From a virus: 26,391 bases of DNA. Made by a program: the position numbers and the translations under genes. The notes under the pieces were generated by a model. That model saw only the letters and a program-made list of their open reading frames with translations. It made no database searches and had not been told where the DNA came from. The stretch is taken from IMG/VR virus record IMGVR_UViG_3300042429_000172, positions 1 to 26,391 of that record. One strand, 5' to 3'. Shown here one piece after another: positions 1,645 through 23,990 of the stretch (position 1 is the first letter of the stretch; each line of letters begins with the position of its first letter).

Positions 1645-1800
1645 ATGACAAAATCACACGCACGACAAATTTTAGAAGAATATGTAAAATTGCATCCATT
1701 TCCGATTGTAGATGCAATAGTTTGGTCTTATACAGATGAGAAATACAACGTAATTCAATGGACATTTGTTGGATTGCTTAAAGTTGCATACGACTTATGA
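1645..1800 (+). CDS. Small unidentified protein, 51 aa
   Basis: A short open frame starting 12 bases after the terminase stop and ending in TGA at 1798-1800, which overlaps the next ATG as ATGA. It fills the only gap between two well-supported genes and is in the same strand and style, so it is likely real. The product begins M-T-K-S-H-A-R-Q-I-L and is mixed polar and aromatic, with no cysteines, no clear membrane segment and no motif I recognise. No function can be assigned. Confidence 0.6.
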   Translation: MTKSHARQILEEYVKLHPFPIVDAIVWSYTDEKYNVIQWTFVGLLKVAYDL

Positions 1801-2459
1801 AAGCGCAGACCTTTATTTTCGTACACGACCAGCAGATTGTCTTAGACTACATTGAGGCTGGCAAGTTTGACCAATTGCCCGATGTCCAATATGTGTTTTT
1901 AGGGCAGCGACCAGTTGACCTATTAGACCAGTTTGTCGGAGAAAAGAAAGTGATTGTAGCACGAAACCTACCTGATAATATTGAACACTACCCTAATTTA
2001 GTGGCTTGGGCTGGCTGGTATGCCATAGCACGAAACGGACTAATCACAGCCGACATCGTTAATCTATTTGAGTACGATGTAAACTTATTGGGATGGAAGC
2101 AGCCAATGGCTTCGGCTGGTTACTTTTGGCATCCGTACGCAGATTCTACTTGGTGGAACTACAACGGAATAAAGACCGAACTAAGAAAGCTGGAAATATC
2201 GGTCACGAACGATCCTTTACCGATGACCTCCAATTACACTTTGTTTGCAGAAAGAATTAACACATTTTTAAAGTCCTTAATGGAGAGCGACTTAGATCCA
2301 GAGCATCCGCAGGCTGGTCACATCGTTGAACGATATTGCAGCGCATACTTTCAGTTTAAGGTCACTGCTGCTGGAGGGCTTACCCACCTCTACGCTGATT
2401 CACACGGAACGCAAGGCAGGGGGGATAGATACCAAGACATTAAATACAAACTGCTATGA
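1797..2459 (+). CDS. Putative glycosyltransferase-like protein
   Basis: A 220-residue protein that opens with a short hydrophobic strand (F-I-F-V-H) and has an acidic motif F-E-Y-D-V at residues 91-95. In position and composition this resembles the acidic metal-binding site of GT-A fold sugar transferases (E-D-D or D-x-D). Many Trp and Tyr residues in the middle would suit sugar binding. It overlaps the next gene, a clearer glycosyltransferase, by four bases (ATGA) and is followed by a methyltransferase, so the three probably act together on a surface or virion glycan. The family call is inferred from the motif and neighbours and is not certain; it could be another nucleotide-sugar enzyme. 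Confidence 0.5.
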   Translation: MKAQTFIFVHDQQIVLDYIEAGKFDQLPDVQYVFLGQRPVDLLDQFVGEKKVIVARNLPDNIEHYPNLVAWAGWYAIARNGLITADIVNLFEYDVNLLGWKQPMASAGYFWHPYADSTWWNYNGIKTELRKLEISVTNDPLPMTSNYTLFAERINTFLKSLMESDLDPEHPQAGHIVERYCSAYFQFKVTAAGGLTHLYADSHGTQGRGDRYQDIKYKLL

Positions 2460-3049
2460 TTAAAGTGATAAACTACGGCAGCGGTAAATGGAAAGAGTTG
2501 GCAGCAACCCAATTCACTAACGGACTGCCTTTAAAAACTTACAGCAACGAATCCCCAAACGGAAGGGGTGACAACTATTGGAAGTGGAAGCCTGATATTA
2601 TCCTAAACACAATGAGGGAAAACAAAGGAGATTTTATCCTTTACATCGATGCTGGCGATTACCATACCGAGGATTTTTGGAAGTGGCTTAATGCCTACGT
2701 TGTTGTTTCGGATAATCTATTTGTCAGCCGTGGGTACTTACATAGAGAATGGACTAAAGCTGATTGTTTAGAAGCAATGGGGATGCTGCCTTGCATTGAG
2801 AGAATAGACCACCAATTAGAGGCTGGCTTGATAGGTCTAAGGGCAAACGATGAAAACATTGCACTTGTTGAGGAGTGGGCAAAGTGGATGCAAGACGATC
2901 ACTTAGTGAACGATGCGCCAAGCCAAATCCCTAATCATCCCGATTTTAAAGAGCATAGGCACGACCAATCTATTTTGACGAACTTAGTGCTTAGAGATAA
3001 ATACCCAATTCAAAGAATAAACCACGTAATATGGAACGCAAGATCTTAG
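2456..3049 (+). CDS. Glycosyltransferase-like protein (GT-A type)
   Basis: A 197-residue protein with three features of a family of small GT-A fold transferases. There is an N-terminal Y-W-K-W-K-P-D-I-I-L block (residues 41-50). A strand carries the acidic site L-Y-I-D-A-G-D at 62-68, the likely divalent metal and nucleotide-sugar site. A late H-R-H-D-Q-S-I-L motif lies at 167-174. It should transfer a sugar from a nucleotide donor; the acceptor cannot be read from sequence. It overlaps the upstream gene by ATGA and the downstream methyltransferase by 19 bases. No membrane segment or signal peptide is seen, so it acts in the cytoplasm. It could modify virion proteins, phage DNA or host surface precursors. 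Confidence 0.72.
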   Translation: MIKVINYGSGKWKELAATQFTNGLPLKTYSNESPNGRGDNYWKWKPDIILNTMRENKGDFILYIDAGDYHTEDFWKWLNAYVVVSDNLFVSRGYLHREWTKADCLEAMGMLPCIERIDHQLEAGLIGLRANDENIALVEEWAKWMQDDHLVNDAPSQIPNHPDFKEHRHDQSILTNLVLRDKYPIQRINHVIWNARS

Positions 3050-3537
3050 AAAAATTAGACTACTCCCATCCGTGGGTAACAGCAAAGGAACACATTTTGC
3101 AAGTGTATGACGAAGCAAAAAGGCTCAAAGGTCACGCATTAGACATCGGCTGCTTCCAAGGTCATTCTGCCTTGGCTATGGGCTTGGCTGGTATGGAAGT
3201 ATCTTTAGTTGATATTCATATAGATTACTTAGATAAAGTAACCGATTTGCTGGAAGGTCACGGCTGCAAAGTAAATACCGCAGCAATGTGCGAGAGCGCA
3301 AAGGTTCTAAATTGGATTGAGCCAGTTGAATTAATAATGCACGATGCAGAACACGGTCAAGCTATTGTGCCTGAATTGCTTTTGTTTTGGGATAAGGTAA
3401 AGTCAGGCGGTACGTATATAATTCATGACACCGACCAAATAGATTTAGCTGGCTTTATAAAAGCATTAGGATACCCCGAAAACAAAACCACAGCAGACGA
3501 GCGTGGAAGGTGCTTGTCTATATTTTACAAGCCATGA
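3031..3537 (+). CDS. Class I SAM-dependent methyltransferase
   Basis: A 168-residue Rossmann-type methyltransferase. Motif I is A-L-D-I-G-C-F-Q-G-H-S at about residues 36-46. The acidic end of the second strand is S-L-V-D-I-H (Asp61), expected to bind the SAM ribose. H-D-A-E-H near 104-108 and I-I-H-D-T near 130-134 match later strands of the Methyltransf_24 style, whose members often act on sugars or small molecules. It starts 19 bases inside the glycosyltransferase gene and overlaps the next gene by ATGA. A role in O-methylating a glycan made by its two neighbours is plausible but inferred. There is no DNA-methylase motif (D/N-P-P-Y), so a DNA methylase is unlikely. Confidence 0.8.
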   Translation: MERKILEKLDYSHPWVTAKEHILQVYDEAKRLKGHALDIGCFQGHSALAMGLAGMEVSLVDIHIDYLDKVTDLLEGHGCKVNTAAMCESAKVLNWIEPVELIMHDAEHGQAIVPELLLFWDKVKSGGTYIIHDTDQIDLAGFIKALGYPENKTTADERGRCLSIFYKP

Positions 3538-4112
3538 AATTCACATCCCTAACTATTGACCAATTCCAGCGCATCGCAGCCATTGAGGCTACTGGTGACG
3601 AGCAAATCAAGAAGGTGGCTATCGTTGCCGTTCTCAAAGGACTATCTTTAGACGAAGCGAAAAGCCTACCTATGACCGAGGTGGGCAAGGCGTACAAGGC
3701 AATCGAAGATGAGATGAAAGATTTGCCGAAGTTGCAGTATAAGGAAACTTTTACGCTCAATAAAAAGAAGTACAAGCTATCTCTATTCACCGATACCCTC
3801 ACGGCTGGTCAACTAATTGAGATGATGTCTTATGAAATGGCAGACGAGTACCAAGTGATTCAAAACCTCCATAAAATAATGGCTACCCTTGCGAGAGAAA
3901 GAAAGTGGTTTAGAACCTTACCTTACGATGGGGCGAAGCACGGAGAGCGTGCCGAGGAGTTCAAGCAGCTTACAATGAAGGAAGTGTGGGGTGCGGTATC
4001 TTTTTTCTTATTAGCCTCCGAAGGCTTTATAACGATTATGAAGGACTATTCGGAGGCGGTGCTGAGGACGATGGACAAGGAGTTAACCTTGCTGCGAAAT
4101 ACGGCTGGATAG
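3534..4112 (+). CDS. Tail assembly chaperone, short (zero-frame) form
   Basis: A 192-residue helical cytoplasmic protein encoded in the tail module, analogous to lambda gpG. It begins M-K-F-T-S-L-T-I with an ATGA overlap on the methyltransferase stop; an upstream in-frame ATG at 3510 lies inside the methyltransferase and is less likely. A Y-D-G ... R-A-E pattern near residues 127-137 and the late hydrophobic F-F-L-L stretch are of the kind I associate with this family. Near its end lies a slippery heptamer (4001-4007) with an RNA stem behind it, and the -1 frame stays open to 4246. Two products, as in lambda gpG and gpGT, are therefore expected. Sequence alone gives the chaperone call; gene context and the frameshift support it strongly. 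Confidence 0.78.
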   Translation: MKFTSLTIDQFQRIAAIEATGDEQIKKVAIVAVLKGLSLDEAKSLPMTEVGKAYKAIEDEMKDLPKLQYKETFTLNKKKYKLSLFTDTLTAGQLIEMMSYEMADEYQVIQNLHKIMATLARERKWFRTLPYDGAKHGERAEEFKQLTMKEVWGAVSFFLLASEGFITIMKDYSEAVLRTMDKELTLLRNTAG

Positions 4113-4246
4113 TAGTCGTGGACTCTTTGGCAATGGGCGACGTTCTTAAATGGGATGCCATCTTTAATTTGAACGCTCGCCAGTTTCTTAACTATGTTCA
4201 GTATTACTCGGACAAGAAAGAGGTCGAAGCAATGAAAAGCCAATAA
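3534..4246 (+). CDS. Tail assembly chaperone, long form by -1 frameshift
   Basis: Ribosomes that slip back one base on T-TTT-TTC (4001-4007) read codons 3534-4007 in the first frame and resume at 4007 in the -1 frame up to TAA at 4244-4246. The product has about 237 residues. The extra C-terminal 79 residues include K-Y-G-W-I-V-V-V-D-S-L-A-M-G-D and end N-Y-V-Q-Y-Y-S-D-K-K-E-V-E-A-M-K-S-Q. This 'GW..L..GD' type of tail is what I expect of the T extension in such chaperones, which binds the tape measure. The region 4113-4246 holds no other credible gene, so without the frameshift it would be an unexplained gap. Splice of frames: join 3534..4007 with 4007..4246. Confidence 0.75.
4001..4057 (+). 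promoter_or_regulatory. Programmed -1 ribosomal frameshift signal
   Basis: The heptamer T TTT TTC at 4001-4007 is in the right phase (codons TTT 4002-4004, TTC 4005-4007) for an X-XXY-YYZ slip. Six bases later, GCCTCCGAA (4014-4022) can pair perfectly with TTCGGAGGC (4049-4057), a 9-bp stem. A competing 5-bp hairpin AGCCT/AGGCT (4013-4017 with 4022-4026, loop CCGA) sits in the same place. Slippery site, spacer length and stem all match known -1 signals. Confidence 0.82.
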
Positions 4247-4265: not shown

Positions 4266-4271
4266 GTGGTA

Positions 4272-4838
4272 ATGGACAAGCTGTTTCAAATCGAATCTAT
4301 TCAAGGTACTGACTTTGTCGGTCTTGATGTGGCGCAGCTTACTGGCGTTAAAAAGGTGCTTGGTGAGTTTGCCAAAAAGGTTGTTGAGGATGCACAAAAG
4401 AACTTAGACAAAGGCAGCAACGCTTCTATGTCTTTACGGCAGTCTATTACACCGCTACCAGTCAAAGAAGTAGGCGGTGGCTACATGGTAGAGATTGAGA
4501 TGAACGACTATTGGAAGTTTGTCAATGAGGGCGTAAGGGGAGCAAAGAGCGGAGCAAAGGCGCAAGGCAGTCCATTCCAATACAAGACTAAAATGCCACC
4601 TCGTCAATCAATTGAGGAGTGGATAACAAACAAAGGGATAAGCGTAGGCGGTGTAAGGGGTCAAAGAGAAAACCCAAGGGCATCCCTCGCAGCAGTTATT
4701 CAAAGGCGCATCTATAACTTTGGCACACCCCGAACCCTTTTCTTAGACAAGGCACTCCCCGAATCACTTATGAAAGCACTAACCGAAGATGTAGCCGAAG
4801 CCTTCGGCAAGTCCATTTCTATCTCTATAAAAATATGA
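4272..4838 (+). CDS. HK97 gp10-like neck/tail completion protein
   Basis: A 188-residue protein. In the middle it has the pattern Y-W-K-F-V-N-E-G-V-R-G, then a Gly/Ala/Lys-rich loop, then P-P-R-Q-S-I-E-E-W-I-T-N-K-G. This is the arrangement of the HK97 gp10 family of head-tail joining or tail-completion proteins. I chose ATG at 4272 rather than GTG at 4266 because ATG is far commoner here and gives a natural M-D-K-L-F start. The stop overlaps the next gene as ATGA. In many phages this gene sits next to the tail terminator and tube genes; here it is between the chaperone and baseplate genes. The frame is intact with the expected length. Confidence 0.68.
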   Translation: MDKLFQIESIQGTDFVGLDVAQLTGVKKVLGEFAKKVVEDAQKNLDKGSNASMSLRQSITPLPVKEVGGGYMVEIEMNDYWKFVNEGVRGAKSGAKAQGSPFQYKTKMPPRQSIEEWITNKGISVGGVRGQRENPRASLAAVIQRRIYNFGTPRTLFLDKALPESLMKALTEDVAEAFGKSISISIKI

Positions 4839-5995
4839 GCATATCTATTATCTCACAGCCGAGCGTTACTCTAAGCGCAGACAACGCTTTGTTCGTTGTT
4901 TCAGGCAGTAACTTTGCAAGCGGTAACTATCGCTATGTGGCAGATGTAAGCGGAACGACTTTACTAAGCCGACTGAAGTGCGACAAGCTACCCAACAACC
5001 AAGGCTTTTTCAACGTGGCGAGGGTTATCGAAACGCTTGTGCCTATTGCAAAGCCAGCGGTTACTTTCTTTCAAGACCCGTTAATTGCATCGACTTATCA
5101 GGTGGGTTTTAGAGAGGAGTACGGCACACCACCAGTAGTAGCCAGCGGTGTAACCACGGCAAGCGGTATCGTCTTTCAAGGCTACAAGAGGCAATGGGAA
5201 GACTTTGTCGCAAGCGGGTATTACACGTTAGGTTCAGCAGCCAAGATATTATCAAAGCAGCCAACAAAGAGAAAGACAAGAGTAGGAGAGAATGACTTTG
5301 CCAGCGTATTGTTTCACATAGTAACTGGTTCGACAAGCTATAAAGTAACAATCACAGCACCTACAAGGACTTTTTCAGTTTCAGGTACTATTGCAAGTGG
5401 TGCGCTGGATGGAATGTTTAATCTTGGTCTTGCAGGAATCTACTCTTTAACGAGCGGTCAAACATCCGATGGTCAGGTAGGCGGTTACTTGATGGCAGGG
5501 ATAAGCAGCTACACGGCTACAATTGAACATGTGCATTCGGGAGATACGCAATATTACAGCGAAGGCAGAACATCGCAAAACCACACGATAGAGTACGAAG
5601 TGGAAAGCTGCGAGCGGTTTGTACCGCAAAGGCTCTTTTTCAAGAACTCTTTGGGTGGCTTTGATGGCTATACCTTTACGATGAAAAACCGAAAGACTGG
5701 TAATATGACCAAGCAGACCTTCGGAAAGAATCAAAACATCTACGGCACAAAGGTAGCTGAAACGATTTACTCAGGGCAATTCGAGGAAACCTTAACGCTA
5801 AACAGCGATTGGCTTATAGATGCGAATTGGATGTCAGAGTTGATTTACTCACCGCAAGTCTATTTGCAAATCGGTTCGGAGTTGGTAGAGGGCATCGTTA
5901 ACACCTCATCATTCACTTTCCACACAAGACCGCAGGACAAACTTCAGCAGCTTCAAGTTGAGGTTAAGATAGCCTATAAAAACAACGTGATATGA
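4835..5995 (+). CDS. Putative tail/baseplate structural protein
   Basis: A 386-residue beta-rich protein with many Ser, Thr and Gly residues and no signal peptide. The N-terminal 110 residues look like an immunoglobulin or fibronectin-like sandwich (N-Y-R-Y-V-A-D-V-S-G then L-P-N-N-Q-G-F-F-N-V). The C-terminal third carries a conserved-looking F-F-K-N-S-L-G-G-F-D-G-Y block followed by more strands. It overlaps both neighbours by four bases (ATGA at each end) and lies just upstream of a hub-like protein and the tape measure, so it is probably part of the distal tail or baseplate. I do not recognise a named family; the structural role is inferred from composition and position. Confidence 0.58.
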   Translation: MSISIISQPSVTLSADNALFVVSGSNFASGNYRYVADVSGTTLLSRLKCDKLPNNQGFFNVARVIETLVPIAKPAVTFFQDPLIASTYQVGFREEYGTPPVVASGVTTASGIVFQGYKRQWEDFVASGYYTLGSAAKILSKQPTKRKTRVGENDFASVLFHIVTGSTSYKVTITAPTRTFSVSGTIASGALDGMFNLGLAGIYSLTSGQTSDGQVGGYLMAGISSYTATIEHVHSGDTQYYSEGRTSQNHTIEYEVESCERFVPQRLFFKNSLGGFDGYTFTMKNRKTGNMTKQTFGKNQNIYGTKVAETIYSGQFEETLTLNSDWLIDANWMSELIYSPQVYLQIGSELVEGIVNTSSFTFHTRPQDKLQQLQVEVKIAYKNNVI

Positions 5996-8220
5996 GTACG
6001 TTAATCATTTATCCGCTTGACGATGAGAACGCAGAAGTTCCGTATGTTTTGGATTGCGATGAGGTAGATATTAGCTTGACCTTTTCGGTGCAAGACATTC
6101 AAGATGTAACCAAAAGGAGGGGTTCATTTAGCAAGACTATAACCCTTCCCGGTACTGGCGCAAACAACCAAGCCTTCGGTCACGCTTATAACATTCAGTC
6201 TTTTGTCGGTGGCTTTACTCCGAACAAAAGGATTAGGTGTACGCTATGGAATGAAGGCATCCAAACCTTTACGGGTACTTTGCAGCTTTTGAGCATCACT
6301 AAAATGAATGAGCAAATCAACTACGAAGTCGGAATATACTCGGAGGAGATAGCTTTCTTTAGGCAGATAAACGAAACGAAGTTAGCAGCAACCGTTGGAG
6401 TGAGTGGGTTTAATCATAACTTGACAGCAGCAATCGCAAGCGGAACTTGGACTAACACGGCTGGTAGTGGATATGTTTACGGCTTTTTGGATGGCTACGG
6501 ATATACTGATGTTGTTCCTTCTGCTTTAAGTTTCTTTGGCATTTCTTTGCTTATCCCCTACATTCAGCTTGTGCCATCGTTTTACGTCAAGCAAATGGTA
6601 GATTTGATATTTGCTCAAAGCGGATATAGATACGAATCTGCTTTTTTTAACACAGCTAATTTTAAAAAACTGGTCATTCCTTACGCTGGCGGTACGATGT
6701 TGCAGAATGATTTAAGCGGTGAAAATAGCATAATGGAAGGCAGCGAATTGACTGGTGGAGAGCCCGGTGCTGCTAATTGGAATTATTTAGGCGACTTTTA
6801 TTACAGCGGTGTATTTCCATTTGACACGGTTATTACCGACCCACAAGGGTATTGGGATGATACTACTTATCAATTTACAAACGTAGCATTTTACAGCACT
6901 TGGACTGTAAACTATGAATTTACCTTAAAAAACTTAGCCAATAGAGTTGTTCAAATAGGCTTTGCCATTTGCGATTCGGTTACTGGGTTGCCTATAAATG
7001 AAACCCTGCAAGACACCGTGGTTGATTTTATACAGCCATTACAAACTAAAAAGTTTCAATTTCAGGGGGTAGTAAGGTTAGAGCCAAACCAAGTTATAGA
7101 TTTACGAGCGTTTTTCTTTAGCATTCCTAATGACTACCCAATACAAATAGAGGACAAGTCTAAAATCACAATGATTTGCACCGAGAATGCAGGGGCAAAC
7201 TTAGCTGCTGATATGGTTCGGGCATTACCGCCTGACATCACACAAGCCGATTTATTGAGCGACTTGCAAAAGATGTTTAATCTTTATTTCTATCAATCCC
7301 CAACCGACCCAGACCTTATTTACATTGAGCCGTTTAATACGTTCTATTCAAGCGGAAGCGTTGATTGGACAATGAAGATAGACAATACCGACAAGCACCT
7401 TTTGCAGATGGGTGATCCACAAGCAAGAAAGCAAATCACTTTTAAGTATAAAGATTCGGGCGATGCTTTGGGCAAGCTATATTCAGACACATTTAAAGAG
7501 GGATACGGAGCAAGGATATACCCGACCGACAACTACTACGCAAAAGGCGAGCAAGTGGTCGAAACCAAATGTGCTACGGTTATTCCAGCTTCTTTTCGTT
7601 CGGGATTGCCTATCGGCAGAACTTTCGATATAGACTCAAACAACAAGCCAAAAGAAAGAGCGACTGGCTATCGAATAGCGCAATTCAATTATGTAGCTAT
7701 TCCATCTTCGGCTGCGTGGTCAATGCTTTTAGATTATACACCTACCTTTGCACAATTTGCCTCACTACCTTTAATTGCTCATATTGACAACCCCTATGCA
7801 CCGACTTTCGACCTTGCTTTCGGGATGCCTAAGAATCTTTACTTTAAAGTGATTGATGGTGCTGGTTTTAAGGACTACGATAATAGAAACCTATTTAACA
7901 CCTTTTGGCTGAACTACATTAAGGAAACGACCTCAAAGGAATCCCTGCAAATTGAGATACCAGTAATACTTGACCCAGTTGATATTTATCAATTAGATTT
8001 TAGAAAGCCGATATACATTGAAGGCATTCTCTTTAGGTTGCTGGAGGTGAGAGACTACACCATTGGAGGTTCTCAAAAATGCACCGCAATCCTTCGCAGA
8101 ATCCTAAACCTTGCACAACCAGCCACGGGAGCAGTAGAGGTTAACACCTTCTTTGATTCATCTACTTTAGTGCTTGGCGAAATGAAACCACAAATTGTAA
8201 CACCTAATAACATTCAGTAA
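5992..8220 (+). CDS. Putative baseplate hub / tail tip protein
   Basis: A 742-residue protein with an N-terminal block S-L-T-F-S-V-Q-D-I-Q-D-V-T-K-R-R-G-S-F-S followed by K-T-I-T-L-P-G-T. I associate such a 'sF(S/T)KTI.LPGT..N' segment with large tail tip proteins of Bacteroidetes phages. The rest alternates beta-rich and aromatic stretches with no membrane segment. Its size, its place directly before the tape measure and the one-base TAATG overlap with that gene suggest a hub or tail-tip protein that helps open the cell envelope or starts tail assembly. No peptidase or glycosidase motif is visible. The hub role is inferred from position. Confidence 0.55.
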   Translation: MSTLIIYPLDDENAEVPYVLDCDEVDISLTFSVQDIQDVTKRRGSFSKTITLPGTGANNQAFGHAYNIQSFVGGFTPNKRIRCTLWNEGIQTFTGTLQLLSITKMNEQINYEVGIYSEEIAFFRQINETKLAATVGVSGFNHNLTAAIASGTWTNTAGSGYVYGFLDGYGYTDVVPSALSFFGISLLIPYIQLVPSFYVKQMVDLIFAQSGYRYESAFFNTANFKKLVIPYAGGTMLQNDLSGENSIMEGSELTGGEPGAANWNYLGDFYYSGVFPFDTVITDPQGYWDDTTYQFTNVAFYSTWTVNYEFTLKNLANRVVQIGFAICDSVTGLPINETLQDTVVDFIQPLQTKKFQFQGVVRLEPNQVIDLRAFFFSIPNDYPIQIEDKSKITMICTENAGANLAADMVRALPPDITQADLLSDLQKMFNLYFYQSPTDPDLIYIEPFNTFYSSGSVDWTMKIDNTDKHLLQMGDPQARKQITFKYKDSGDALGKLYSDTFKEGYGARIYPTDNYYAKGEQVVETKCATVIPASFRSGLPIGRTFDIDSNNKPKERATGYRIAQFNYVAIPSSAAWSMLLDYTPTFAQFASLPLIAHIDNPYAPTFDLAFGMPKNLYFKVIDGAGFKDYDNRNLFNTFWLNYIKETTSKESLQIEIPVILDPVDIYQLDFRKPIYIEGILFRLLEVRDYTIGGSQKCTAILRRILNLAQPATGAVEVNTFFDSSTLVLGEMKPQIVTPNNIQ

Positions 8221-10043
8221 TGGCAGACGTACAAAAGGAAATAGCACTAAAGGTCACGACCGATGTAGGTCAAACCACAACCGCTTTAAAGTCTGCGGAG
8301 GAAAGGCTGACCGAAGCGAAGAAGGCGATGCTCGATTTGGCTATGGCTGGAAAGCAAGGCTCAAAAGAATTTAGGGCGTTAGCTGTCGAAGCTGGTGCGT
8401 TAAAGGGTAAGATTGAATCGGTTGAGCAAACGGTTGATGGATTAGGCAAGAGCGCAAATAAGATTGAAGTCTTTACCGGTGCTGTTCAAGGCATCGCTGC
8501 TGGCTTTGCCATCGCACAAGGCACGGCTGCTTTATTTGCTGAAGGTAACGAGGAACTGCAAGAAGCACTCGTTAAGGTGCAGGCATCGCTGGCTTTATTA
8601 CAAGGAACTGAACAAGCCGTGCAGTTGCTAAGAAAAGAAAGCGCAGCAGGACAAGCCTTATTGACAGCAAGGACAGCAGCTTATAATGTAGTAGTAGGTG
8701 CATCAACTGGCGCACTAAAGCTGTTTAGAATTGCATTGGCTGCTACTGGAATAGGTTTAGCCGTAGTTGCGATTGGCGCACTGGTTGCTAATTGGGGTAA
8801 ACTAACAAAAGCTGTTACCGACTTTGTTAGCGGTTCTCCGATGCTTACAAAAGTCATTGGATATATCTCGGATGGCTTTACCAAGTTAGGCAGAGCGATC
8901 GGAGTAATACCAAGCGAATCAGAAGCAGCGACAAAGCAAATGATTGCTGATTTAGAAAAGCAGCAAAAGCTATTAGAGGCAGCAGGAGCAAATACTATAT
9001 TTATTGAAAGGCGTTTGGCTGAATTACGAGTTCAGTTAGCAAAAGAAACGGGCGAAGGATTAGCGGAAGCCGAAGAGGCATTGACTTTATTGACTGCCTC
9101 CGAAGAAGCAAAGAGAGTTGAAAGCGCAAAAGAAACAGCAAAAAAACGTGCTGAAATAGAAAAGGCAGCAATTGAGAAATCTAAAGCAGAACGATTAAAA
9201 GCAGCCGAAGATCAAAAGGCAGTTGACCAAATAGCCATAGATGCCGAGGACGAAAAGGTAACAAAAGCAAGAGAGGCAGCGCAAGAACTGGCAGCTATTC
9301 AAAACGACATTCGCAGAAGCAAGCTAACCGACTACCAAAGGGAGCGTGAAGATTTCCTTTTGCAGCGTGAAAAGATGCTGGAGTTAATGCGCACGTCAGG
9401 TGCTTCTCAAATCGAATTGCAGTTGTTTGCATCGAACACGGCACGGATGATGCAGATAATGGATTCCGATAGGGAGTTAGAAATACTCAACGCAACCGAA
9501 AAGACCAAGTTTGAAAACCGCCAGCAGTTTATGGTTAAGACTGCTGAAATGACGATGCAAGCATTAGGCGCATTGACGTCTTTATACACGGCAAGTTTAG
9601 GGCAAAGCGAAAAAGACCAAAAGAAAGCGTTTGAGGCAAACAAGAAATTCAGCATAGCACAAGCGTTAATATCCACCTTTCTTGCGGTAAACAACGCCTT
9701 AACTGCTGGTGGCAACCCAATCAAGTTAGCAACTGGTGCGCAGTTTGTAGAGGCTGGTATTGCTTTGACGGCAGGTTTGGCTAACGTAATAAAGATTAGG
9801 AAAACAACATTCCAAAGCACAAGTGCGCCAAGTAGTTCAGGCGTAAGCGCACCTGCTGCTGGAGGCGGAGGCGGTCAATTACCTCCTGCTGCTTTCAATC
9901 CGAACGTAACAGCTACCAACCCAACTGGACAGCCGAACCCAATGGGGTCAGGTCAGCAGCCTTTAAGAGCGTATGTATTAGATAGAGATATTGAAAATTC
10001 ATCAAGCAGAAGAAATATGTTAAGGGACTTTGCAGCAATTTAA
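8220..10043 (+). CDS. Tail tape measure protein
   Basis: A 607-residue protein that sets tail length and is likely ejected with the DNA. The N-terminal 90 residues are helical (E-K-K-A... heptad-like), and a hydrophobic helix lies at about residues 168-193 (L-F-R-I-A-L-A-A-T-G-I-G-L-A-V-V-A). It is followed by a long Lys/Glu/Ala coiled coil from about 240 to 430. A second hydrophobic segment lies at about 485-530, and then comes a flexible Ser/Pro/Gly tail. This layout is standard for tape measures, though it is short. By the rule of about 0.15 nm per residue the tail would be near 90 nm. No lysozyme or peptidase domain is seen. A strong terminator follows the gene. Confidence 0.88.
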   Translation: MADVQKEIALKVTTDVGQTTTALKSAEERLTEAKKAMLDLAMAGKQGSKEFRALAVEAGALKGKIESVEQTVDGLGKSANKIEVFTGAVQGIAAGFAIAQGTAALFAEGNEELQEALVKVQASLALLQGTEQAVQLLRKESAAGQALLTARTAAYNVVVGASTGALKLFRIALAATGIGLAVVAIGALVANWGKLTKAVTDFVSGSPMLTKVIGYISDGFTKLGRAIGVIPSESEAATKQMIADLEKQQKLLEAAGANTIFIERRLAELRVQLAKETGEGLAEAEEALTLLTASEEAKRVESAKETAKKRAEIEKAAIEKSKAERLKAAEDQKAVDQIAIDAEDEKVTKAREAAQELAAIQNDIRRSKLTDYQREREDFLLQREKMLELMRTSGASQIELQLFASNTARMMQIMDSDRELEILNATEKTKFENRQQFMVKTAEMTMQALGALTSLYTASLGQSEKDQKKAFEANKKFSIAQALISTFLAVNNALTAGGNPIKLATGAQFVEAGIALTAGLANVIKIRKTTFQSTSAPSSSGVSAPAAGGGGGQLPPAAFNPNVTATNPTGQPNPMGSGQQPLRAYVLDRDIENSSSRRNMLRDFAAI

Positions 10044-12899: not shown

Positions 12900-13952
12900 A
12901 TGAAAATAGCATTAATCCACAACATTCAAAGTACGGGTTCGGCACTCTACCGACTTGAACTTCCGCACGCTCACTTAGATGCAGCGTACAAAGGTCTTAC
13001 GTTTTATTCAGCACCTGACCCATTTAGAATCTCCGATGAATCCTTCGAGCAGATGGACATCGTTTTAGTCAGTAGGATGTGGGGCGAAACGCCTGAACAA
13101 ATTAAATGGCTTCGGGATAAGTGTACCCAGTTCAAAGTCACTTTGATTTTAGACCTTGACGATTATTGGGTATTGGAATCAGGTCATCCGATGTTTTCTA
13201 TTTATAGAGAAAGGAATATCTCTAATATGATTCGTGACCACATTAGAGTAGTTGACCACGTTATCTGCACGAATGCCTATTTAAAGGAAAAGGTGTCAAT
13301 TTTAAACCCTCAAGTATCAATAATTCCGAATTGCACCTTTTCTGGTTACGAGCAGTACAAGTCTAAACCCGAACCGAGTGAGTTCGTAAGGTTCGGCTGG
13401 TTTGGTGGCGCACAGCATTTTGAGGACATTATTTTGATGGAATCGGGTATGGGCATCCTTGCAGACGATCGTTCTTTAAACGGCTTGTATCGGCTTTATT
13501 TAGGAGGGTGGAACGAGAACCCAATGTACGAAGCGTACGAGAGAGTTTTTACTGGTAACGGCAAGCAAGAGAACTACGGCAGAATCCAAGCAGCGGATAT
13601 TTACTCTTATGTCGGTGGCTACAACTTTGTAGATGTATGTCTTGCGCCTTTACGAGATACGACCTTCAATAGATGCAAAAGTGAGTTGAAATTAGTCGAA
13701 GCTGGCACGATGGGCAAGGCTATTATTGCTTCCGATGTTTACCCTTATAACACGATAATCGACCACGGCTTAAATGGCTTATTGGTTCGGGAGGCACGAA
13801 GTAAAGATTGGCACAAGCACATGAAAACCTTGATACACGAAAAGGACTTGCGCTTAACCTTGGCAGCCAATTTAAAAGAAACAATCGAAACGGAATTTAA
13901 CATCGATTATTGGGGCGCAAAAAGAATGGATTTGTATCATTCGCTTCGGTGA
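12900..13952 (+). CDS. Glycosyltransferase, GT4-like (GT-B fold)
   Basis: A 350-residue protein with two Rossmann-like halves. The N-terminal half starts M-K-I-A-L-I-H-N and has D-L-D-D-Y-W at 85-90. The C-terminal half opens R-F-G-W-F-G-G at 164-170 and holds the donor-binding region: L-A-P-L-R-D (248-253), K-S-E-L-K-L-V-E-A-G at 260-269 and N-G-L-L-V at 292-296. The K-S-E-x-K-x-x-E pattern is the usual GT4 retaining-transferase signature. It should transfer a hexose from a nucleotide sugar. It has no membrane segment. It is placed among virion genes, after a terminator and a TACATTTA box, apart from the cassette at 1797-3537, so it may have been gained separately. Substrate unknown. Confidence 0.82.
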   Translation: MKIALIHNIQSTGSALYRLELPHAHLDAAYKGLTFYSAPDPFRISDESFEQMDIVLVSRMWGETPEQIKWLRDKCTQFKVTLILDLDDYWVLESGHPMFSIYRERNISNMIRDHIRVVDHVICTNAYLKEKVSILNPQVSIIPNCTFSGYEQYKSKPEPSEFVRFGWFGGAQHFEDIILMESGMGILADDRSLNGLYRLYLGGWNENPMYEAYERVFTGNGKQENYGRIQAADIYSYVGGYNFVDVCLAPLRDTTFNRCKSELKLVEAGTMGKAIIASDVYPYNTIIDHGLNGLLVREARSKDWHKHMKTLIHEKDLRLTLAANLKETIETEFNIDYWGAKRMDLYHSLR

Positions 13953-18611: not shown

Positions 18612-18904
18612 TGGTTCGTTACGGCTACGGCTACCCGATTGGGATGCTGTTTCAGGGTAATGGATTTTACCTTGCATACTATAATGAATATCGGCAAAGA
18701 GGAATAGCTGATGGCGGGGCAATAGACAGCCCTACCGCTACAAGCTGTGCCGAGTCGAGGTTCGTTAGATTAATGCCTGTGCCTACAAACGGTTATATTT
18801 TAGCTTATAATACCCAAATGAGGTCTTTGGCTGATTCAGGAAATGGCTTTGATGCACGGACATTAGATTGTGCTGCTGGCAGAATAACACCTATAATAAT
18901 TTAA
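18611..18904 (+). CDS. Small protein with an internal two-fold repeat
   Basis: A 97-residue protein whose residues 18-50 and 61-91 repeat one pattern: G-aromatic-x-L-A-Y, a basic stretch with Arg, A-D-(G/S)-G, an acidic spot, Thr, then C-A and Arg. Each copy has one Cys (46 and 87), so the pair could form a bridge if exposed. The N-terminus is Gly/Tyr-rich (Y-G-Y-G-Y-P). I have a general memory of 'Y..R...DGG....C' units in proteins of Bacteroidetes phages but cannot name a function. It is directly upstream of the fibre genes and likely a virion surface protein. Confidence 0.5.
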   Translation: MVRYGYGYPIGMLFQGNGFYLAYYNEYRQRGIADGGAIDSPTATSCAESRFVRLMPVPTNGYILAYNTQMRSLADSGNGFDARTLDCAAGRITPIII

Positions 18905-18906
18905 AA

Positions 18907-20115
18907 ATGACGAACGCTTCCCTCTTAATTGTTCCCGACCGCTTTAAGGCGAGTAAGCTATACTCTCAGCTTCCACAAGACGGAAGTGGTGATTTTGTTG
19001 TTACGAGGGCAACTACTGCGTATAGAACTAACGAGAATGGCATTTTGGAATCAGTAGCTTCGGGCGTGCCAAGATTAGATTTTCCTATCGGCAGCGGTTG
19101 TCCTGCTCTTTTAGTTGAGCCTGCTGCTACTAATTTGTTTTTAAATTCAGTTTGGGCAGGGGGTGGAACTCCACCTACAAGCTGGGCAACGCCTTTTTTG
19201 ACAGGCACAGCGACAGTTGCAACGTCTACATTAAATCCATCCGTTGCTGCATATACATTTGCTACGGCTAACCAAAGGGCTGTTTTTAGCCAAAACATTT
19301 CGCAGACAAGCGGAGTTGTATATACGCACAGCATTTATGTTGAAGCGGTTACGAGTACTTTGACCGTTGAAAATTTACTCAATTACAACATTTCAATAGC
19401 TGGTATAAGCACTTTTAGAGAAGATGGCGTTGCTGTTTTGGCAACACACGTCGTGCAATCGGGAAAAAGGTATTCTTTAACAATTACTGCTCCAAGCACG
19501 GCTTCTAACCAAGTAAGAATCGGTAATGGTGTGTCTTCGAATACAACAGCAACAGTTCGATTAAGCTCGCCTCAAATCGAAACTGGCAGCGTAGCCACTT
19601 CTTTTATTAACACCACCGCTGCAACAGCTACTCGCAATGCAGATGTGATAAGCAAGACCGCTGTAAGTGGCTTGATAGGGCAGACGGAGGGAACGCTGTA
19701 TGCGGAGGTTAGCGCAAGCATATTTAATTCATCGTTAATTCATCGAATACTAACCATTAGCGATGGAACAACAAACAATAGGATAGGGATTACCCGTGTT
19801 GTTTTACAAAACAATAGGTTTCAAGGTATTGCGGCAAACAGCGGTTCTCTTACCGTACAAATACAGCAAACAGCAGATGTTACAGCAAATTCTGTTGTAA
19901 AACTTGCTTTAGCATATGCGCTAAATGACTATGCTTTTTATGTCAATGGAGTTTTAGTTGGCGTAAACACAAGCAGCGCAGTACCAGCTTGTAGCAGAAT
20001 TGATATAGGAAATCAATTAGGCTCAGACCAATTTGGCTCAGGATTAATCCGAGCAGCAGCCTTATACACCACCCGATTAAGCAACGCACAGCTGCAATTT
20101 TTAACCACGTTATAA
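18907..20115 (+). CDS. Fibre/adhesin protein A with lectin-like C-terminus
   Basis: A 402-residue protein; ATG at 18907, three bases after the upstream stop, is chosen over an in-frame ATG at 18868 that lies inside the upstream gene. The N-terminal domain (about 1-75) has R-A-T-T-A-Y-R-T-N-E-N-G and G-C-P-A-L-L-V-E-P-A-A-T-N-L, a motif I know from phage fibre and spike proteins. A beta-rich middle follows and ends G-S-V-A-T-S-F. Then G-L-I-G-Q-T-E-G-T-L-Y-A-E-V starts a LamG or concanavalin-like domain, which closes I-R-A-A-A-L-Y-T-T-R-L-S. It probably binds sugars on the host surface. A paralogue follows immediately with a different middle. Confidence 0.72.
   Translation: MTNASLLIVPDRFKASKLYSQLPQDGSGDFVVTRATTAYRTNENGILESVASGVPRLDFPIGSGCPALLVEPAATNLFLNSVWAGGGTPPTSWATPFLTGTATVATSTLNPSVAAYTFATANQRAVFSQNISQTSGVVYTHSIYVEAVTSTLTVENLLNYNISIAGISTFREDGVAVLATHVVQSGKRYSLTITAPSTASNQVRIGNGVSSNTTATVRLSSPQIETGSVATSFINTTAATATRNADVISKTAVSGLIGQTEGTLYAEVSASIFNSSLIHRILTISDGTTNNRIGITRVVLQNNRFQGIAANSGSLTVQIQQTADVTANSVVKLALAYALNDYAFYVNGVLVGVNTSSAVPACSRIDIGNQLGSDQFGSGLIRAAALYTTRLSNAQLQFLTTL
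19114..19136 (+). repeat. 23-bp direct repeat, copy 1 (in fibre gene A)
   Basis: A 23-base stretch beginning GTTGAGCCTGC and ending TACTAATTT is identical to 20324-20346 in the next gene, encoding V-E-P-A-A-T-N. It marks the border between the shared N-terminal domain and the divergent middle, a place where recombination could swap domains. Confidence 0.8.
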
Positions 20116-20116
20116 T

Positions 20117-21343
20117 ATGTCTACACCAAGCGTACTACTTATACCCGACCTCTTAAAAGCAGGGAAGCTATACTCGCAGATTCCTAATAGCGGTGCTGTA
20201 GACTTTGACGTTACCCGTGCTACTACTGCCTACCGAACCAACGCTTCAGGCGTATTAGAATCGGTCGCTTCGGGAGTTCCGAAATTAGACTACCCCATAG
20301 GTGGTGGCTGTCCGAGTTTGTTGGTTGAGCCTGCTGCTACTAATTTAGCGTTGAGGAGTGAAGAGTTTGATAATGCGAGTTGGGCTAAGACAAGGTCAAG
20401 CGTAACGCAAAATGCAACTACTGCGCCAAATGGTACAACAACCGCTGATAAGCTAATTGCATCAGTTGATAATAATACTCATTTTATTTTGCAATCCAGC
20501 ATAGTTGTCGTGGCACAAATATACTCCGCTTCTATTTTTGCAAAAAAAGGAGAGTATGATACTATCAGATTAAGAATGGTTAACCTATGGTCTCCAACTC
20601 CAACTGCGGTTTATAATTTAACATCAAAAACGATAGTTTCCACAGCTTCCTCCACCGCAAAAATAACAGAACTCTCTGATGGGTGGTTTAGGCTTGACCT
20701 TTCTGCTACTGCAAATGCTATTGCGGGAAGTAATGCGCAACTGGAAGTCTTAGTTGGCAACAATAGCGTGCTTTCTTTTGCTGGTGATGGCACATCAGGC
20801 ATTTTTATTTGGGGCGCACAACTCGAAGTTGGTTCAGTAGCCACCTCCTACATTCCAACCGTAGCAGCCACCGCCACCCGTAACGCTGACGTGATTACCA
20901 AAACGGGCGTGAGTGGGTTTATTGGGCAGACGCAGGGTACGCTTTATGCGGAGGTAAATTTGAGTCATATTACTACTAAAGGCTTTTTCGATATAAGTGC
21001 TGATTCAGGTAATTTTTACAGAATTAGAACAGCCAATAGTGGCACATGGATTTTTAGATACCGAACGGCAGCTGGTACTGAAACAACTATTTCAGACCTT
21101 AGTATTTCAAATACCTCAACTGGTATTTTTAAAATAGCGTTTGCTTACAAAGATGGAGATTATGCTTCGTGTGTGAATGGAGTGCTAAGAACTTCATCTA
21201 TATCGGGCATTTCTCCCATTGGAACGCTTTCTAATATCGAATTAGGACTTGGCCCAGTAAGTTTAAACGACCGCATCCGAGCCGCTGCCATCTACCCTAC
21301 TCGCCTTACAAATTCTCAGCTTGAATCTTTAACCACATTATAA
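20117..21343 (+). CDS. Fibre/adhesin protein B, paralogue of A
   Basis: A 408-residue protein with the same three-part layout as its upstream neighbour. The N-terminal domain is near-identical in pattern (R-A-T-T-A-Y-R-T-N-A-S-G, C-P-S-L-L-V-E-P-A-A-T-N-L). The middle is different and has the look of a carbohydrate-binding sandwich (S-A-S-I-F-A-K-K-G-E, D-G-W-F-R-L-D-L-S). A shared junction Q-L-E-V-G-S-V-A-T-S-Y and A-T-R-N-A-D-V follows, then a LamG-like domain from about 275 to the end (G-Q-T-Q-G-T-L-Y-A-E-V). It starts one base after gene A's stop. Two adhesins with different middles suggest either a mixed fibre or alternate binding specificity. Confidence 0.72.
   Translation: MSTPSVLLIPDLLKAGKLYSQIPNSGAVDFDVTRATTAYRTNASGVLESVASGVPKLDYPIGGGCPSLLVEPAATNLALRSEEFDNASWAKTRSSVTQNATTAPNGTTTADKLIASVDNNTHFILQSSIVVVAQIYSASIFAKKGEYDTIRLRMVNLWSPTPTAVYNLTSKTIVSTASSTAKITELSDGWFRLDLSATANAIAGSNAQLEVLVGNNSVLSFAGDGTSGIFIWGAQLEVGSVATSYIPTVAATATRNADVITKTGVSGFIGQTQGTLYAEVNLSHITTKGFFDISADSGNFYRIRTANSGTWIFRYRTAAGTETTISDLSISNTSTGIFKIAFAYKDGDYASCVNGVLRTSSISGISPIGTLSNIELGLGPVSLNDRIRAAAIYPTRLTNSQLESLTTL
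20324..20346 (+). repeat. 23-bp direct repeat, copy 2 (in fibre gene B)
   Basis: Identical to 19114-19136. The spacing between the copies is 1210 bases; recombination between them would fuse the N-terminus of A to the middle of B and delete one gene equivalent. Confidence 0.8.
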
Positions 21344-21922: not shown

Positions 21923-22167
21923 CCAACAAAGAACTTGCGATTATTCTATTAGACAAGCAATACAGCATTGTTGGATTGTCGTTTGATGAGGCGTGCAATA
22001 TGGATCGAGAGGAGTTTATAGCGTATAAAATGACCTTGGAGCAGCAGCAAGAATGGTCGGAGTGGGCGGTAGATTTCGCTGTTAAAAAGAAGCGGTGGAG
22101 TAAGAAGCTGGCTCGAAAAGAAGTAGCCATGCTGGATTTTCAGCACGGATTAAGCCTTATACTATGA
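21919..22167 (+). CDS. Small unidentified protein, 82 aa
   Basis: An 82-residue charged helical protein (M-T-N-K-E-L-A-I-I-L-L-D-K-Q, E-W-S-E-W-A-V-D-F-A-V-K-K-K-R-W), basic in its middle and without membrane segments. It overlaps the holin-like gene and the phosphoesterase gene by four bases each (ATGA), so it is translated as part of that unit. I do not recognise it. Its Lys and Arg content would suit nucleic acid or partner binding. Confidence 0.5.
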   Translation: MTNKELAIILLDKQYSIVGLSFDEACNMDREEFIAYKMTLEQQQEWSEWAVDFAVKKKRWSKKLARKEVAMLDFQHGLSLIL

Positions 22168-23990
22168 TTGAAAGAATTAGTAGAAACATTCACAAAGTTG
22201 CGGTTGATAAATCGCAGCTTTTTTTATTGCTTAGTGATTTGCATTGGGACAATCCTAAGTGCGAACGTGACCTCCTTAAACGGCATCTAAAGCAAGCAAG
22301 AGAACGAGGCGCAAAGATTGTCATTAACGGAGATTTCTTTTGTCTGATGCAAGGAAAGTACGACCCACGGAGAAGCAAGAAGGACATACTGCCCGAACAT
22401 AATAAGGCGAACTACATTGATGCAGTTGTCGAAGATGCGGTGAAGTGGTGGACACCTTATGCGGATATGATTCTTCTTATAGGATATGGCAACCACGAAT
22501 GCTACCATCCTGACACCAAGGTTTTAACCGACAAAGGCTGGGTAAACATTACCGAGGTAACGACCGAAGATATGGTGGCTACCTTTGACAACGAGCATAT
22601 CTATTTCGAGAAACCAAATGCGGTAGTATCAAAGCCAGCAGATAAGCTGTACACTATTGAGGGCGGATACACAAAGCAAGTAGTATCTTCTAAGCACGCA
22701 GTTATGTTAAACGACATGACCAAGATAAACGCTGAAGATTTTGCTACCTGGGCAGCACACGAAAGGGTAACGGAAATGGCTTTGCCACACGGCAGAAAAG
22801 TACAATCCAATTCAGAAGTAGATGCAAAGTGGGTAGAGATACTAACTGCTGTGGTAATGGATGCCACCATTGTTGACCACGCTAAATACGAGCCAGCAAG
22901 CAAAAAGATTAGAGTGCAGTTTAAGTTGAGCAAGCCTGAAAAGATTGCCTACATCCGCTCTATCTTAGATGCCTATGGTGTTGATTATACTTTTGCTGAA
23001 TGCAAAATGACTGGTGTAAATAAACTCCAGCCGTATTACATCCGCATTTATGGTGATTGGGCGAGAAAGATTAACCAAGACCTCAACGGAATTAAGCAGC
23101 TACCTGAAGCGTTTGCCTCTTTAACTGGTGATGGATTTGATGCCTTAATACAAACAATCCAAAAAACGGATGGCTCAATGGATGGCAATTTAACTGTGTG
23201 GTCATCAACTGACAGCGTTAACATTGACATCGTGCAGCGTGCTTGCATTCTCAATGGATGGTTGTTTAAGGTTAAAGTCAACAAAAGAAGAAGTGGATTC
23301 GCCAACGGCAAGCCTCAATACCTTGCTTCATTTATGCCAGCCTTGCACAAAGCGCAAAAGATAAACGTAAGCGAGCAGGACTACGATGGTTTGGTGCATT
23401 GTTTAAATATGCCTTCAGGCTGTTTCGTTACTCAAATAGATGGCAAGGTTGCATTTTCAGGAAACACTGCCATCATTAAGAACCTTGAAACCGATCCGCT
23501 CCAGCGTTTCGTTGACCTCTTAAATATGACCTGCGGAACAAACGTGCAAGTCGGTGGCTATGGTGGTGTTTTACACTATCAAATCGAAACAGCAAATAAC
23601 GAATTCACCAGCGCAATCATGAAATATTATCATGGTTTTGGAGGTGGTGGTGCGGTTACTAAAGGCGTTATTCAAGACCAAAGAATGATGGCACAATTGG
23701 ATGGCTATGATATTATTTGGATGGGTCACGTTCACGAAATGTACCACCACGTTAATATGGTTGATTGTTACGAGCCTATGTTTAAGCGAATAGTCCACAA
23801 AGAAGTGCACCAGCTAAGAACCGCAGCCTATAAGGAAGAATATGAGGATGGCTTCGGTGGTTATCATATTGAGAAGGGCAGACCTGTAAAACCTTTGGGC
23901 GGTTACTGGATGAACCTCGGAGGCACAAGAAGGCGAGAGAATGGTCGCAGAACTTTAAAGGCTGAAATATCTTTTACTAAAACTGACTAA
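22164..23990 (+). CDS. Calcineurin-like metallophosphoesterase precursor with intein
   Basis: A 608-residue precursor. The host protein is a metal-dependent phosphoesterase: S-D-L-H (Asp25, His27), N-G-D (Asp57), G-Y-G-N-H-E (108-112) and, after the insert, M-G-H-V-H (521-524). Between Glu112 and Thr435 lies a 322-residue intein, residues 113-434. Splicing would restore G-N-H-E-T and give an enzyme of 286 residues, a normal size for this family. Substrate unknown: possibly a nucleic acid end, a nucleotide or a phosphoprotein. It sits between the holin-like and endolysin genes and overlaps both neighbours (four bases at 22164-22167, one base at 23990). Before splicing the active-site loop is interrupted, so the enzyme should be off until the intein leaves. 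Confidence 0.9.
   Translation: MIERISRNIHKVAVDKSQLFLLLSDLHWDNPKCERDLLKRHLKQARERGAKIVINGDFFCLMQGKYDPRRSKKDILPEHNKANYIDAVVEDAVKWWTPYADMILLIGYGNHECYHPDTKVLTDKGWVNITEVTTEDMVATFDNEHIYFEKPNAVVSKPADKLYTIEGGYTKQVVSSKHAVMLNDMTKINAEDFATWAAHERVTEMALPHGRKVQSNSEVDAKWVEILTAVVMDATIVDHAKYEPASKKIRVQFKLSKPEKIAYIRSILDAYGVDYTFAECKMTGVNKLQPYYIRIYGDWARKINQDLNGIKQLPEAFASLTGDGFDALIQTIQKTDGSMDGNLTVWSSTDSVNIDIVQRACILNGWLFKVKVNKRRSGFANGKPQYLASFMPALHKAQKINVSEQDYDGLVHCLNMPSGCFVTQIDGKVAFSGNTAIIKNLETDPLQRFVDLLNMTCGTNVQVGGYGGVLHYQIETANNEFTSAIMKYYHGFGGGGAVTKGVIQDQRMMAQLDGYDIIWMGHVHEMYHHVNMVDCYEPMFKRIVHKEVHQLRTAAYKEEYEDGFGGYHIEKGRPVKPLGGYWMNLGGTRRRENGRRTLKAEISFTKTD
22500..23465 (+). other. Intein coding region inside the phosphoesterase gene
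   Basis: Codes for 322 residues from Cys113 to Asn434. Block A: C-Y-H-P-D-T-K-V-L-T-D-K-G-W. Block B: S-S-K-H-A-V-M (His178, intein residue 66). Two LAGLIDADG-type helices are visible, at residues 227-236 (L-T-A-V-V-M-D-A-T-I) and 328-338 (L-I-Q-T-I-Q-K-T-D-G-S). Block F/G: C-F-V-T-Q-I-D-G-K-V-A-F-S-G-N followed by Thr as the +1 extein residue. The penultimate residue is Gly rather than the usual His, a known variant. All parts needed for splicing are present, so it is probably active, with a homing endonuclease that may or may not be active. Confidence 0.92.

Follow-up and report, generated by a model that had tools for sequence, protein, structure and literature searches.

A tail-chaperone-like phage gene whose ribosomal −1 frameshift signal may derive from programmed transcriptional slippage

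Results

Organisation of the locus and the shift signal

The window analysed here is the whole 26,391-nucleotide stretch of the IMG/VR virus record IMGVR_UViG_3300042429_000172. Its cassette follows the order terminase, frameshifted gene, gp10-like gene, two large genes and tape measure gene (Table 1), and the frameshifted gene lies approximately 4 kb upstream of the tape measure gene, with three genes (4266-8220) between them. Glycosyltransferase-like and methyltransferase-like genes stand between the terminase and the frameshifted gene (1797-3537), and a further glycosyltransferase-like gene is found within the structural cassette (12900-13952). Two adjacent related proteins encoded at 18868-20115 (RATTAYRTN...) and 20117-21343 (LLVEPAATN...) represent a tandem duplication of a probable tail/fibre protein, and in a calcineurin-like phosphoesterase at 22164-23990 the sequence following GNHE is apparently an intein-like insertion (CYHPDTKVLTDKGWV ... 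VAFSGN).

Table 1. Features of the frameshifted gene and of its neighbours, in window coordinates.
Feature	Position	Strand	Remarks
0-frame gene, N-terminal domain of the tail-chaperone-like protein (short product)	3534..4112	+	ATG start, 192 aa; family of 264 sequences
Slippery heptamer T_TTT_TTC	4001..4007	+	X at codon position 3; P-site TTT, A-site TTC
T6-C-TT, where other family members have the T9/T10 run	4001..4009	+	Interrupted by C at 4007
Spacer TTATTA	4008..4013	+	6 nt
5′ arm of the stimulatory stem, GCCTCCGAA	4014..4022	+	1/9 sites variable in the clade, retained as G-U
3′ arm of the stimulatory stem, TTCGGAGGC	4049..4057	+	0/9 sites variable in the clade
Inner 8-bp stem inside the loop	4025..4043	+	4025-4032 paired to 4036-4043; weaker in some clade members
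−1 frame extension	4007..4246	+	79 aa, giving a 237-aa fusion; family-conserved G-W...D motif
HK97 gp10-like neck/tail gene adjoining the frameshifted gene	4266..4838	+	PF04883, E 0.0016, just below cut-off
Tape measure protein gene	8220..10043	+	phrog_1506, E 1.2e-9

The first-pass annotation of this DNA had described a −1 frameshift at a heptamer in the right phase, followed by a six-base spacer, a perfect 9-bp stem closing a loop of 26 nt and a −1 frame open to 4246, and all of these sequence elements were confirmed. The shift site reads TTTTTTCTT, that is, T9 in which C has replaced the seventh T, and a homopolymer of nine or more A or T is absent at the window junction, where the run is T6 and then C. 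The −1 frame, open from the heptamer to its stop, gives the product GWIVVVDSLAMGD. Folding of 3995-4075 yielded −25.8 kcal/mol (z = −2.92), a value that beats 199 of 200 dinucleotide shuffles and is equalled by one.

A chance check placed a perfect 9-bp stem at suitable spacing at approximately 0.09% of window positions. Among the 41 in-phase X_XXY_YYZ heptamers in the genes of the window, the one at 4001-4007 is alone in being followed by such a stem (spacer 4-9) and alone in having a −1 frame that outruns its gene. No complementarity of at least six bases, as for a pseudoknot between loop and downstream sequence, was detected between 4023-4048 and 4058-4130. A candidate Shine-Dalgarno stimulator upstream (AAGGAAG, 3978-3984) was rejected; it reads AAAGAAG or AAAGAGG in relatives and seems too distant from the heptamer.

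Conservation and selection among near relatives

Fourteen IMG/VR contigs, with 0-frame proteins 93-98% identical to that of the window, served as near relatives. Alignment upheld the signal proposed by the first reading: in 14 of 14 the heptamer and the outer stem are retained, as are the −1 frame and its stop codon. Where the −1 frame alone is read, third positions are variable at 26 of 44 sites, against 6 of 87 for first and second positions, and this bias towards third positions indicates that the −1 frame is translated and selected in the window's clade. Conservation and selection on the −1 frame thus argue strongly for programmed −1 frameshifting at the window heptamer, and the junction itself is almost certainly real.

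The window's clade, characterised by T6, has predicted structure downstream of the heptamer, with z from −1.9 to −4.6. The window also contains a small hairpin, GCCT/AGGC (4014-4017 with 4022-4025), which had been put forward as a competitor of the long stem, the two RNA shapes tuning the shift rate. The hairpin does exist in the window, but it is disrupted in relatives L002 (AAGC) and L004 (GGGA), in both of which the outer stem is intact, in L004 by means of a G-U pair. The idea of tuning by two shapes was therefore abandoned. Since two relatives lack an intact small hairpin and the inner stem is weakened in several, the outer stem alone appears as the steady feature. Across the clade its arms vary too little for covariation to be informative, with one wobble change and no compensatory pairs, and their conservation is partly explained by coding, because they sit in a dual-coding stretch.

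A −1 junction throughout the wider family

A family of 264 sequences, many of which are repeat retrievals of contigs already included, was gathered by profile-guided scans with the fused protein and from two isolate genomes, the Nonlabens phages P12024L and P12024S. N- and C-parts were assigned by HMM, and both were present in 257 loci; the C-part lies in the −1 frame in 254 of these and in the frame of the N-part in three, L120 (T11), L199 (T11) and L210 (T10). The T run of L199 is one base longer than that of L223 (T11 vs T10), the two proteins being identical, and the three in-frame loci may be genuine variants or assembly errors. That three loci sit about one T off their kin and read in frame could suggest that the split as a whole comes from ordinary sequencing or assembly indels, or that the overlap is due to chance. 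However, 254 of the 257 loci, drawn from many metagenomes, have the same split, as do two isolate genomes, and the −1 frame is under purifying selection, so that the probability left to artefact or chance is negligible.

Each of the 153 distinct frameshifted members, which form 17 clusters at <45% identity, has its two parts connected by a −1 shift at one common place. Several lineages have a −1 frame that opens no more than 0-8 nt ahead of the run, and a start codon (ATG, GTG or TTG) near this opening is missing in 12 of 28 clusters; the junction must therefore sit at the run. The same evidence bears on whether the −1 frame could be a separate gene with its own start and no fusion, for which the window offers GTG at 3986, a codon from which the −1 frame is open ahead of the heptamer. 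This GTG is TTG in L002, and the residues flanking the junction on both sides are conserved as in a single protein. In view of the late opening and the missing starts, an independent start was rejected, and a separate gene is accordingly a very improbable explanation.

Both Nonlabens phages have a T9A site, unlike the window, with the C-part in the −1 frame. They were the only matches to a tblastn search of the isolate phage collection, and two scans of bacterial genome contigs yielded no relative. They are the isolates closest to the window phage, and their host is a member of the Bacteroidota (Persicivirga/Nonlabens). Their copies of the gene are deposited as two adjacent hypothetical proteins (gp40/gp41 and gp38/gp39) without a frameshift annotation, an entry that the present analysis would correct. 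A few bases past the run, TTTAGG is common in L057, L060, L070-L075 and other T9/T10 loci; frame 0 reads it as Leu-Gly and frame −1 as Phe-Arg, an instance of dual coding in the overlap.

Length of the T run at the junction

The longest T run at the junction of the 153 distinct members is T9 in 111, T10 in 30 and T6C in 12, and T7 or T8 occurs in none of the 153. All 12 T6C sequences belong to the window's clade, the other 141 members having T9 or T10, and the 16 clusters other than that of the window are uniformly T9 or T10. The first-pass annotation would have been contradicted by homologues without the heptamer; distant homologues carry T9 or T10 at this place, so that the shift is conserved across the family but the signal differs. 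The run occupies codon phase 1 or phase 2, with a single case in phase 0, and the use of all three phases implies that the length of the homopolymer, rather than one codon arrangement, is what has been kept.

In a codon-usage test that took each protein as given, together with an in-phase T6 heptamer, the joint probability of runs this long in every T9+ lineage was approximately 2e-5 (16 lineages) or 2e-8 (27 lineages). The test is conservative on heptamer position and assumes independence of the lineages. The flanks of the 153 loci (574 kb) contain only five runs of T9 or longer, and T7-T8 runs reach about half of the expected number. Runs of A9 or longer number 7 in the same flanks against 34 expected under a second-order Markov model, a depletion of about five-fold. 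Structure downstream of the T9/T10 sites has a mean z of −0.35 among cluster representatives, nearly all of which show nothing, and only the window's clade has the stem.

These data are relevant to an account in which the entire family relies on ribosomal −1 frameshifting, T9/T10 acting as a stronger slippery tract with no need of a stem and T6C as a weaker, stem-dependent one. An in-phase U_UUU_UUN is indeed contained in every T9/T10 run, and ribosomal slip alone or alongside the polymerase could act there; moreover, −1 ribosomal frameshifting of the lambda type is an established mechanism in phage tail chaperones (PMC5009743). Six T's and one further base would nevertheless suffice for a heptamer, yet T7 and T8 are absent and the minimum is nine in three phases. 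Runs of such length are also improbable from codon usage without selection on the run itself, and the T9/T10 sites nearly always do without stimulatory structure downstream. An all-ribosomal family is, in view of these observations, rather doubtful, and different mechanisms for T9/T10 and T6C are preferred here.

Protein identity

The N-terminal domain of the window protein was modelled with AF2 (residues 1-158, pLDDT 89.7) as helices and a beta-hairpin, and the C-terminal domain as a helical structure (pLDDT 80.4), the two parts of the fusion having been folded separately. The window protein itself has no match to chaperone family models. Among 53 relatives, five match Phage_TAC_7 of Pfam weakly (best E 0.0038) and seven match phrog_166, 'tail protein' (best E 1e-4). 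A Foldseek search of solved structures returned nothing at E ≤ 0.001, and the viral structure matches are uncharacterised phage proteins, the Nonlabens protein of this family included. The HK97 chaperone 2ob9 was the top re-ranked PDB chain, with values below the level of trust (Z 2.5, rmsd 4.2, 79 residues), and neither HK97 gp13 nor Mu gp41 gave a match when profiles were compared.

The designation as a textbook tail chaperone, proposed from the sequence alone, therefore holds only in part: the weak Phage_TAC_7 and PHROG matches of relatives and the weak HK97 structural match are suggestive of it, whereas the window protein matches no model and the tape measure gene is not adjacent. Because of this last point the product is described here as chaperone-like and not filed as a chaperone. 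The weak matches and the position in the tail cassette make a chaperone-like role likely. Some other neck or tail protein, made in two lengths for a different purpose, would fit the lack of a model match, the negative HK97 gp13 and Mu gp41 comparison and the distance from the tape measure gene. Against it stand the weak Phage_TAC_7 matches in five relatives, the PHROG 'tail protein' matches in seven, 2ob9 as top chain and a −1 shift that appends a helical domain within a tail cassette; we regard this reading as unlikely.

Discussion

U_UUU_UUC is a standard ribosomal heptamer, and published reporters show uninterrupted T6 to be a poor slippage substrate for the bacterial RNA polymerase. In the window phage and its near relatives, a minority of ribosomes would slip −1 on this heptamer, helped by the 9-bp stem six nt downstream, and the slip would yield the 237-aa fusion, adding the helical C-terminal domain to the short protein. 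Judging from heptamer and stem, the shift in the window's clade is very probably ribosomal.

Slippage by the bacterial RNA polymerase has a known threshold of nine T's. In E. coli the polymerase slips only where about seven or more T's stand in a row (PMC6260861) and does so efficiently on nine (PMC5009743), and many bacterial genomes start to avoid A/T runs at length nine (PMC1088944). In the T9/T10 members, RNA polymerase would insert a U, placing part of the mRNA in frame, and one added U is exactly the change that unites the two frames. Transcriptional slippage is thus the probable mechanism in these members, the slippage lengths used for comparison being those known from bacteria other than the hosts of these phages.

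In the tree, the T6 sequences form one clade (support 100/100), whose sister is the T9 group L054/L056 (96/87), nested among T9/T10 lineages. The tree is unrooted and drawn with a midpoint root, and T9 is the ancestral state by parsimony. The sister L054 has no such stem (z −0.51). The simplest history would be one of T9 slippage followed by one substitution: on the branch leading to the window's clade, a single T to C change would have broken T9 and left a ribosomal heptamer, and the stem would have been gained on the same branch. Slippage itself, its level, the ratio of products and the chaperone role are what we infer from the sequence signals, their conservation, selection on the −1 frame, the distribution of run lengths and the tree. 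Overall, it is fairly probable that the ribosomal −1 frameshifting of the window derives from programmed transcriptional slippage and produces a tail-chaperone-like protein in two lengths. The family may well set its short-to-long ratio by transcriptional slippage at T9/T10, the window's clade having swapped to the ribosome through one base and a new stem.

It is known that phages set the ratio of their tail chaperones by means of the ribosome, and the lambda heptamer is G_GGA_AAG. As in lambda gpG/gpGT and other −1 tail chaperones, the gene studied here would give a short protein and a −1 fusion, has its heptamer near the gene end and belongs to a tail cassette. It differs from lambda gpG/gpGT in having T_TTT_TTC with a strong 9-bp stem, no detectable sequence kinship and no adjacent tape measure gene, and most of this family has T9/T10 in place of heptamer and stem. 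By analogy with lambda, the short product would serve as a coat on the tape measure protein, and recruitment of the tail tube protein would fall to the long one. In lambda tail assembly, the ratio of short to long chaperone has been reported as crucial (reviewed in PMC5009743).

A parallel in decoding terms is dnaX, in which the nine-base A/T run of T. thermophilus supports productive slippage of the polymerase, while E. coli uses the ribosome (PMC5009743; PMC1088944). Homologues of dnaX make the same two products at different levels of decoding, as is proposed here. Unlike dnaX, the present gene is a phage structural gene, the slip would give the longer product, and the proposed switch consists of one base and a stem within one family. 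The T9 members also resemble mxiE of Shigella flexneri, where one base added by transcriptional insertion at a U9 run unites two overlapping frames into a long product (PMC1088944), although mxiE is neither a phage gene nor a homologue.

Frameshifted tail chaperones and transcriptional slippage are both already known. In the openly available journal literature searched, no earlier report of transcriptional slippage in phage tail chaperones was found, nor one of a phage tail family with a strict T9/T10 site in which one clade appears to have moved from polymerase to ribosome. If the proposed history is true, a ratio set by RNA polymerase in the family and by the ribosome in one clade would be a rare case, like that of dnaX, in which nature itself has exchanged one level of recoding for another. 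The two levels of decoding would be interchangeable for one product pair in a virus, and a search by X_XXY_YYZ plus stem would misread the mechanism in most of the family.

A remote relative, gp10 of Flavobacterium phage 6H (HMM E 8e-5; L264 10352-10927, minus strand), was excluded from the family counts. A C-domain-like ORF is situated just past it, at 10361-10047. The gp10 gene has T_TTT_TTC in phase, but its −1 frame is closed nearly immediately by TAG, which is why it was left out; a different route may be in use in this phage.
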